Translations under genes and position numbers: made by a program | In this document: piece after piece, positions 57,887 to 60,146 of the stretch | Layout of the letters: every line of letters begins with the position of its first letter | Numbering within the stretch: the first letter of the stretch is position 1 | NCBI RefSeq assembly: GCF_000143985.1 | Contig: NC_014364.1 | Coordinates: forward strand, 248,001 to 312,000 | DNA: 64,000 nucleotides | Source of the DNA: Sediminispirochaeta smaragdinae DSM 11293 | GTDB lineage: Bacteria; Spirochaetota; Spirochaetia; DSM-16054; Sediminispirochaetaceae | Direction: 5' to 3' | Notes under the pieces: generated by a model | Told to the model about the DNA's origin: nothing | The model's database searches: none | The model's input: only the letters and a program-made list of their open reading frames with translations

Positions 57887-58038
57887 GTTAGTGTTACGAA
57901 TATTGGTGGTTCACAGCATGCAATTCTTTTTCTTATTGGCACTTACAAAGATACACATATAAAAATCAGGTAAGAGGGAAAAATCAAGGAGCTTTCCTGC
58001 AAAAAGAACACATTACCACCAGGATTCGGAACACTAGC
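57887..58038. repeat. 152-bp element bounded by 24-bp imperfect inverted repeats
   Basis: The left arm (57887-57910) and the reverse complement of the right arm (58015-58038) match at 20 of 24 bases (shared blocks TAGTGTT, CGAAT and TGGTGGT). The 104-base interior is AT-rich with no reading frame. The right arm ends exactly at the last base of the NlpC/P60-type gene's stop codon. It could be a MITE-like relic, a structured RNA or a long hairpin terminator. It fills most of the 254-base gap between marR and the next gene. Confidence 0.6.
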
Positions 58039-58748
58039 TAATAGGCAAGAAGGTAGGCATGGCCCCAGGCATGCACGAGCTCTCCCGACAAGGTCTTATC
58101 GTATGCCGGACTTCCCCGCATACGCATTGGGCTGTTGACAATAATGGTCTTACCATTCTCTTTCCTTGTGTATAAGGATGGAGTCTTATGATTCATCTTT
58201 TCGAGGACTATGCCCTTTCGATAATTGTGATGAATATACTCAAGATCGCCGTTTTCCCAAACGTTAACAACCATACCAATATGGGTAAGAGAATCATCAA
58301 CTTTGCCATTGCCGTTCCGATCGTAGGTATCGTCCCAGAAGATGAGATCTCCTGGACTCGGAGTGCTTGCTTCTTCAAGTAGTCCTTGATCGTTGAGATA
58401 GGCATATAATCGTGACACACCGTTTCCCGTATAGCGGGAAAGAGGGGCTACGAGATCGATACCGGCTCCCCAGTAGACTGCCTGCACGACTCCAGTGCAA
58501 TCCAGGCGAAAGTTTTTACCTCTTACGGCAAGCCGCTTTTTTCCGAGTAGGGTATAGGCGGAATCGATCAGTGCTTGCTGGGTTTTTGCGGCAGGGCCTG
58601 TGAGCATGTTTCCCGCTGCGGATGGTGAGGTTCTCGAAGAACCGACTGGGGACAGGGACGCACAGGAGGAGAAGATGAGGGCGGTATAGGTTCCTAGTAC
58701 GAGGAAAAGTAATGTGGAACCACGTGCGGCGATTTTTGCGTCACCCAT
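58038..58748 (-). CDS. NlpC/P60-like cysteine peptidase lipoprotein
   Basis: A 236-residue putative cell-wall hydrolase with a lipoprotein leader (ALIFSSC, C29) and an NlpC/P60- or CHAP-like papain fold. The catalytic Cys is in FRLDCTGVVQAVYWGAG (C84), followed by PSPGDLIFWDD and the His in SLTHIGMVVNV (H156). An EF-hand-like loop, DRNGNGKVDD (143-152), fits the DxNxNGxxD calcium pattern just before the catalytic His. Expected activity is cleavage of peptidoglycan stem peptides in the periplasm. It overlaps the rlmE stop by 8 nt. Confidence 0.78.
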   Translation of the reverse strand: MGDAKIAARGSTLLFLVLGTYTALIFSSCASLSPVGSSRTSPSAAGNMLTGPAAKTQQALIDSAYTLLGKKRLAVRGKNFRLDCTGVVQAVYWGAGIDLVAPLSRYTGNGVSRLYAYLNDQGLLEEASTPSPGDLIFWDDTYDRNGNGKVDDSLTHIGMVVNVWENGDLEYIHHNYRKGIVLEKMNHKTPSLYTRKENGKTIIVNSPMRMRGSPAYDKTLSGELVHAWGHAYLLAY

Positions 58749-59352
58749 TGTGTTTTTTCCTTAGTCCGATCAAATAGGTCTCAAAAGAGTCTTTACGACA
58801 CGCTTTAGGCTTGAGGGTTTTCAGCTGAGAAAAGCGGCTGCGCACCATCTCCATCAACTCTTGCTCATCTCCTCCCTGGAAAATCTTAACAACCAGGTTT
58901 CCACCCGGGGCGAGAAGTTCTTCTGCAAGGGTGATAACCGATGATGCAAGCGAAAACGATCTTCCCGTATCGACGATACGGTTGCCGGTCGTAGCCGGAG
59001 CCGCATCGGAGACAATGGTACCATAGGGGCCCATGCCTCGAATGCTTTGGTATGCATCTCCCGCAAAGGCATCTCCGGTGATGACGGTGATACCGCTTTT
59101 TTTTGAGACCGTCATTTCTTTTAAATCAACAGAAACAATGGTCGGTTGTAATCCCTTAGCTTTGATTAATCTGGAAATGAAGAGACTCCAACTACCGGGT
59201 GCTGCTCCGACATCCAGGATGGGAAGTTCTGTGTTGATCACCCCAAAACGTTTCTCGATCTCTTCAAGCTTGTAGATCGACCGAGCGGGATATCCCTCTT
59301 TTTTTGCCAACTGGCTGTAGTAGTCGGCTGTTGCACGCTTATTTGAAGCTAT
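58741..59352 (-). CDS. rlmE: 23S rRNA (uridine-2'-O-)-methyltransferase RlmE/FtsJ, probable ATA start
   Basis: Methylates the ribose of a uridine in the 23S rRNA A-loop using SAM. The protein has the SAM motif ILDVGAAPGSWSLF, the catalytic-region residues TIVSDAAPATTGN, and GGNLVVKIFQGGDEQEL; the K-D-K-E set appears in order. The first usable standard start, TTG 59310, would cut off DYYSQLAKKEG, which aligns with the conserved N-terminal helix of RlmE. The frame is open further upstream, where AAAGGAG (59365-59359) is followed after 6 nt by ATA 59352. I therefore annotate an ATA start (203 residues). A promoter at 59388-59417 supports this. Confidence 0.85.
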   Translation of the reverse strand: MASNKRATADYYSQLAKKEGYPARSIYKLEEIEKRFGVINTELPILDVGAAPGSWSLFISRLIKAKGLQPTIVSVDLKEMTVSKKSGITVITGDAFAGDAYQSIRGMGPYGTIVSDAAPATTGNRIVDTGRSFSLASSVITLAEELLAPGGNLVVKIFQGGDEQELMEMVRSRFSQLKTLKPKACRKDSFETYLIGLRKKHNG

Positions 59353-59387
59353 CTGTCTCTCCTTTTTCCGTTTAGTGGTTTTCTCTT

Positions 59388-59417
59388 AGCATACGAACAG
59401 AAGGCCTTATCGGTCAA
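59388..59417 (-). promoter_or_regulatory. rlmE promoter
   Basis: On the minus strand TTGACC (59417-59412), an 18-nt spacer and TATGCT (59393-59388). Transcription should start near 59381, leaving room for only the ATA start (with Shine-Dalgarno) before the conserved N-terminal helix. Confidence 0.65.
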
Positions 59418-59501: not shown

Positions 59502-60146
59502 ATGGATAACAGATCGATCATCAGAAGACCGTTCCGCTATCGTTATTACAACGCGGCATTCGGCATTATCATCGTCAATATCGTTTTTTTTGTTTTTAAT
59601 ACCATATCGCCCCAAAGCCGCTATTATACCGCCCTGATTCCCGGTTTAATTATCGGTAAAGGCTTCTACTGGCAGTTTTTTACCTATATGTTTACGCATG
59701 CCAATATAAGCCACATCTTTTTTAACATGCTCGGCCTCTTTTTCTTTGGAACCCAGGTCGAACGCCGCATAGGGAGCAGTGAATTCCTGCTTTTCTATCT
59801 TTTGACGGGATTCCTGGCCGGTCTCTTCTCTTTTATTGTCTATACGCTCACCGGAATGTACGGCGCTGTTTTGTTAGGAGCCTCAGGAGCGATTTTTGCG
59901 GTTCTTCTTGCCTTTGCCGTCTACTTTCCGTATGCAAACATCTACATTATGGGAATTATTCCGGTAAAGGCCCCGCTTTTGGTCATCGGATATACCGCTA
60001 TCGAACTTTTTAGCCAACTTTTATCCATTAACTCGGGTGTGGCTCATCTCACGCATCTGGCAGGTTTCGTTTTCGCATTTTTCTACTTCCTCATTCGTCT
60101 TAACATCAATCCCATAGAGGTGTTTCGCGGCGGCAGAAGGAGATGA
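59502..60146 (+). CDS. Rhomboid-family intramembrane serine protease
   Basis: A six-helix intramembrane protease of 214 residues. The catalytic Ser is S128 in LLGASGAIF and the partner His is H185 in AHLTHLAGF. H71 and N75 in FTHANISHIFFNMLG form the oxyanion site, and the L1-loop WQFFTYMF is present. The substrate is unknown. AAGGAAAG precedes the ATG. Its stop overlaps the start of the next gene by 4 nt, suggesting functional or at least translational coupling with the exported protein. Confidence 0.92.
   Translation: MDNRSIIRRPFRYRYYNAAFGIIIVNIVFFVFNTISPQSRYYTALIPGLIIGKGFYWQFFTYMFTHANISHIFFNMLGLFFFGTQVERRIGSSEFLLFYLLTGFLAGLFSFIVYTLTGMYGAVLLGASGAIFAVLLAFAVYFPYANIYIMGIIPVKAPLLVIGYTAIELFSQLLSINSGVAHLTHLAGFVFAFFYFLIRLNINPIEVFRGGRRR

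Follow-up and report, generated by a model that had tools for sequence, protein, structure and literature searches.

The rlmE gene of Sediminispirochaeta smaragdinae DSM 11293 is very probably translated from an AUA codon at position 59352, a reading to which a probability of roughly 0.88 may be attached on the basis of sequence comparison. The window, meaning the whole 64,000-nt stretch of DNA that was analyzed (G000:C1:248001-312000), belongs to a single-contig genome of 4,653,970 bp, in which a search with the gene's own sequence revealed one copy of rlmE. The gene encodes an FtsJ methyltransferase and runs on the minus strand as 203 codons plus a stop from ATA to TGA (58741-59352, with the TGA at 58743-58741). 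The proposed start codon (59350-59352, minus strand), read as fMet, predicts the N-terminal peptide (M)ASNKRATADYYSQ and is preceded by the Shine-Dalgarno (SD) sequence AAAGGAG (59359-59365, minus strand), the minus-strand arrangement being TTGACC-18-TATGCTAAGAGAAAACCACTAAACGGAAAAAGGAGAGACAG-ATA-GCTTCAAATAAGCGTGCAACAGCCGACTACTACAGCCAGTTGGCA. The open frame is limited upstream by an in-frame TAA (59386-59388, minus strand) and contains no ATG, GTG or TTG from that stop down to a TTG at 59308-59310, so that no AUG, GUG or UUG is available at the true N-terminus, as is demanded of AUH-class starts. An earlier note on this DNA had placed AAAGGAG 6 nt ahead of ATA 59352 and had reported the lack of a standard start codon above TTG 59310 in the open frame; both statements agree with the positions given here. 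Downstream, the rlmE stop is overlapped by the ATG (58748-58746) of an NlpC/P60-domain gene (58038-58748, minus strand), which is probably translationally coupled to rlmE through this overlap. A divergent rhomboid-family gene (59502-60146, plus strand) forms the other limit of the intergenic region.

The product scored 137.9 bits against PF01728 (FtsJ), above the Pfam cut-off of 24.1, while its scores of 144.9 bits against TIGR00438 and 110 against PRK11188 lie below the respective cut-offs of 300.15 (NCBIfam equivalog) and 269. Alignment to E. coli FtsJ/RrmJ (1EIZ) over the domain matches the K in YKLEEI, the D in VSDAAP, the K in VVKIFQG and the E in SFETYL, and the K-D-K-E combination at these four positions is taken here to be the catalytic tetrad of the FtsJ family. 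Since the scores fall below the equivalog cut-offs, the name RlmE, which denotes the 23S Um2552 methyltransferase, is based on the best family fit and on the RlmE homologues reported in Spirochaetia (PMC12123411), and "RlmE-like FtsJ protein" is the more fitting description of the product. A second FtsJ-domain protein, TlyA-like by sequence, is encoded at 3.438 Mb (L213, G000:C1:3438049-3438537).

Within the genus, two genomes were compared, that of the window species and that of a second species (G001) at about 5.5% nucleotide divergence. The block comprising the SD, the spacer and ATA, GGAAAAAGGAGAGACAGATAGCTTCAAATAA, is identical in G001, with ATA thus present in 2 of 2 genomes of the genus. 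Over the 612 nt of rlmE, 35 differences were counted, distributed over 23 synonymous and 11 nonsynonymous codons. Three of the changes fall within codons 1-15, at the 5th, 9th and 15th codons counted from ATA, and all three are synonymous, the third being a TTG to CTG change located exactly at the alternative start, TTG 59310. This CTG removes the annotatable alternative start from G001, where the next canonical codon is a GTG 37 codons after ATA, beyond the catalytic-lysine motif YKLEEI. On the upstream side, a 1-nt insertion difference between the genomes lies immediately 5' of the SD, near 59368, and because of it the upstream frame is not common to both species; in G001 only, an in-frame TTG occurs 31 codons upstream of the conserved N-terminal motif, within the putative -35 box and without a good SD. 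Coding constraint thus sets in somewhere between the indel and the earliest synonymous changes, which leaves ATA as the sole plausible initiation codon from the upstream stop or indel to the N-terminal motif. The identity of ATA in the two species would by itself be no proof of selection, given that most neutral sites are unchanged at this degree of divergence.

A wider set of orthologues comprised 63 distinct sequences with a readable 5' end, two of them from this genus. In all 61 sequences from outside the genus a canonical start stands upstream of the N-terminal D(Y/H/F)Y(S/T) motif, ATG being used in 52 of them; most of these starts lie 5-9 codons before the D of the motif, and ATA lies 9 codons before it. 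For another genus of the same family two genomes were compared (G002 and G003), and the RlmE-like protein of G002 (L013) begins MKRSQPDHYT at an ATG. The view of the earlier note that the conserved RlmE N-terminus is encoded upstream of TTG 59310 is borne out by these orthologues, in which homology extends into that region, and in none of them is an ATG aligned with TTG 59310, which the note had named, together with a lack of upstream homology, as contrary to its proposal. The check that it had suggested, whether an ATH codon is conserved across related spirochaetes, gave a split result, with ATA kept within the genus and ATG or GTG used elsewhere. As canonical starts precede the motif in every outside orthologue, ATA is, judged from the alignment, a derived state specific to this genus.

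The 3' end of the 16S rRNA reads CACCTCCTTTCT, with CCTCCTTTCT as its pairing tail, and AAAGGAG forms 7 contiguous pairs with this tail, which at a spacing of 6 nt to ATA constitutes a strong and well-spaced SD. An SD match of at least 7 was observed in 64 of 403 sampled genes (16%), and in rlmE orthologues from other genera the match at the nearest canonical start is at most 6 and never 7 bp. Considering this difference, the sequences fit a strong rlmE SD that compensates for a weak start codon. Further upstream, a promoter-like TTGACC-18-TATGCT (59388-59417, minus strand) is unchanged in G001. The earlier note had described a good promoter with an mRNA start near 59381; a promoter-like sequence is indeed present, but it is a 9/12 match, weak when taken alone, and about 2.6 matches of this quality are expected in the region searched. 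With this putative promoter, the leader would measure about 30 nt. A search of the leader against Rfam gave no match and its folding was no better than that of shuffled sequences, which argues against a structured leader or riboswitch. A frame of 22 codons also opens at the TTG within the putative -35 box; it ends at TAG 59351-59349, overlapping ATA (ATAG), and in G001 it is fused to rlmE by the 1-nt indel.

The whole genome was scanned for two patterns with 7-base SDs, AAAGGAG-N4-7-ATA and AAGGAGG-N3-6-ATA, and 137 sites were read. The first pattern yielded 95 matches genome-wide versus 77 for a reversed control pattern; the combination of SD and ATA alone is not significant, and becomes significant through its context. 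The rlmE site was the only one of the 137 with a conserved long ORF, no upstream canonical start and no ATG, GTG or TTG beside the SD. The other sites with long ORFs were rejected as gene-internal, antisense to better ORFs or carrying an ATG or GTG directly after the ATA, with the next-best site, at 4.2176 Mb, situated on a terminator-like hairpin and running antisense to an ORF that resembles an aminotransferase. The idea of a genome-wide class of ATA starts was consequently dismissed, rlmE being the sole credible ATA-started gene behind a strong SD among these sites. In a 500-kb sample holding 440 ORFs, a list was also drawn up of ATA, ATT, ATC and CTG codons that follow an SD and precede the first canonical start (ATT, ATC and CTG in this sample only), and no credible ATH or CTG start was detected there besides the ATA of rlmE. 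The remaining candidates in the sample had an adjacent canonical start or a better-placed start, or lay inside another gene.

The ancestral start of rlmE was very probably ATG, and a single transition would have produced ATA before the two species of the genus separated. In vivo, fMet-tRNA would initiate at AUA through a weak third-position pair, aided by the 7-bp SD, the good spacing and the unstructured leader. By analogy with non-canonical starts in S. aureus, the rate of RlmE synthesis would be lowered to about 10-30% of that from an AUG start, and translation of the overlapping NlpC/P60 gene would also be lowered if it is coupled to rlmE. Sensitivity to the level of IF3 may be expected as a by-product of such a start, as distinct from a demonstrated control circuit.

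AUA should nonetheless be a codon that IF3 generally disfavours, and tuning of rlmE by IF3, as the earlier note suggested, is possible. It is rather unlikely, however, that AUA constitutes a dedicated IF3-controlled switch matching RlmE supply to ribosome or IF3 status, an idea that would add to translation from AUA rather than replace it. Starts that are not AUG, GUG or UUG are subject to repression by IF3, and the GTC start of Streptomyces sigR has been shown to be repressed by IF3 in vivo (PMC5472188). Against a switch stand the restriction of the AUA start to one genus, the lack of any further gene in the genome that pairs an AUA start with a strong SD, and the start codon of infC, which is UUG here and leaves IF3 itself without AUH feedback. 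An AUH start on infC of the same organism would support IF3 regulation of other genes; infC instead begins at a conserved TTG that follows a GGAGG-type SD, both in this genus and in almost all of some 30 further spirochaetes examined, and with this UUG start classical AUH-infC autoregulation is absent here. Across the infC loci (L076, L077 and L117-L146) TTG is near-invariant, and in L117-L119 a stop directly precedes it; the conserved UUG, in place of AUU, AUA or AUC, could be the spirochaetal form of a weak infC start. A broader proposal, in which an rRNA methyltransferase has been placed under initiation fidelity and RlmE and the coupled NlpC/P60 protein are made in response to ribosome quality, is quite improbable. 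It would require that Um2552 status, IF3 supply or the assembly state of the ribosome alters the acceptance of AUA, and would amount to a translational feedback as for infC.

Other readings concern the start codon itself. It is very improbable that initiation occurs at a nearby near-cognate codon such as AAG 59340, or that a leader ORF beginning at the -35-box TTG is translated and couples its termination to a restart at the overlapping ATA. The 22-codon frame provides this overlap and has an AAGGAGG upstream of its TTG, but the AAGGAGG is not kept in G001, the TTG belongs to the putative promoter, and the indel in G001 puts the frame in phase with rlmE instead. The upstream TTG or leader ORF was rejected as a common start on account of this frame shift between the species. 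Codons such as AAG initiate far more weakly, and their spacing from the SD is worse than that of ATA. Fainter still is the prospect of a start at TTG 59310, which would yield an RlmE 14 residues shorter and make the upstream similarity fortuitous or part of a leader. Although no canonical start codon comes earlier in the frame, and a protein beginning there would keep the YKLEEI motif, it was rejected because it is CTG in G001, has no SD and is found at the aligned position in 0 of the 62 other orthologues, most of which have AAG or AAA. All 62 encode the N-terminal motif upstream of that position, a start there would cut into the conserved helix, and the codons ahead of it differ from those of G001 only synonymously. 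An assembly or sequencing error by which ATG was read as ATA, a general possibility that the earlier note had allowed for, is of negligible probability considering the identical base in the separately assembled second species.

With translation of rlmE from AUA as the preferred reading, a gene caller limited to ATG, GTG and TTG would drop 14 conserved residues here and would misplace the start further in G001. Few bacterial AUA starts are well supported, and rlmE would add one on a ribosome-assembly enzyme. A literature search for a non-canonical start of rlmE found none in the collection of papers covered, and an AUA start has not been described in Spirochaetota as far as the present searches show.

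Several known systems offer a comparison. In S. aureus, AUA starts with extended SDs have been shown to work for infC, ccpN and citZ, where the output of the three non-canonical reporters tested was about 10% of that from their AUG counterparts in poor medium, and as much as 30% for ccpN in rich medium (PMC13009471). Like these genes, rlmE is a chromosomal housekeeping or regulatory gene whose AUA follows a strong SD, and the ccpN start is likewise conserved between species, namely S. aureus and B. subtilis (PMC13009471). The S. aureus starts were established by ribosome profiling and reporters, whereas that of rlmE is proposed from sequence, in another gene and another phylum. The AUU of E. 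coli infC is similarly an AUH-class start on a translation-related gene and is discriminated by IF3; infC is, however, autoregulated by its own product, while RlmE is no initiation factor and a comparable loop for it would be hypothetical. The GTC start of Streptomyces sigR resembles that of rlmE in being non-canonical, previously mis-annotated and carried by the leading gene of a pair joined by translational coupling, although coupling is only probable for rlmE (PMC5472188). It differs in its codon, in the experimental demonstration of IF3 repression and in its known functional reason, the sigma/anti-sigma ratio, so that the non-canonical start is a true control point in Streptomyces (PMC5472188). 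As regards the protein, E. coli RlmE/FtsJ (1EIZ) and the mitochondrial MRM2 belong to the same FtsJ methyltransferase family and match the sequence across the domain, the MRM2 alignment covering the N-terminal region ahead of the catalytic lysine from query residue 9 on. Unlike rlmE in this genus, the spirochaetal orthologues outside it start at canonical codons, and an ATA that arose in a small clade whose relatives use ATG would provide a natural before-and-after pair for studying the cost and regulation of an AUA start.
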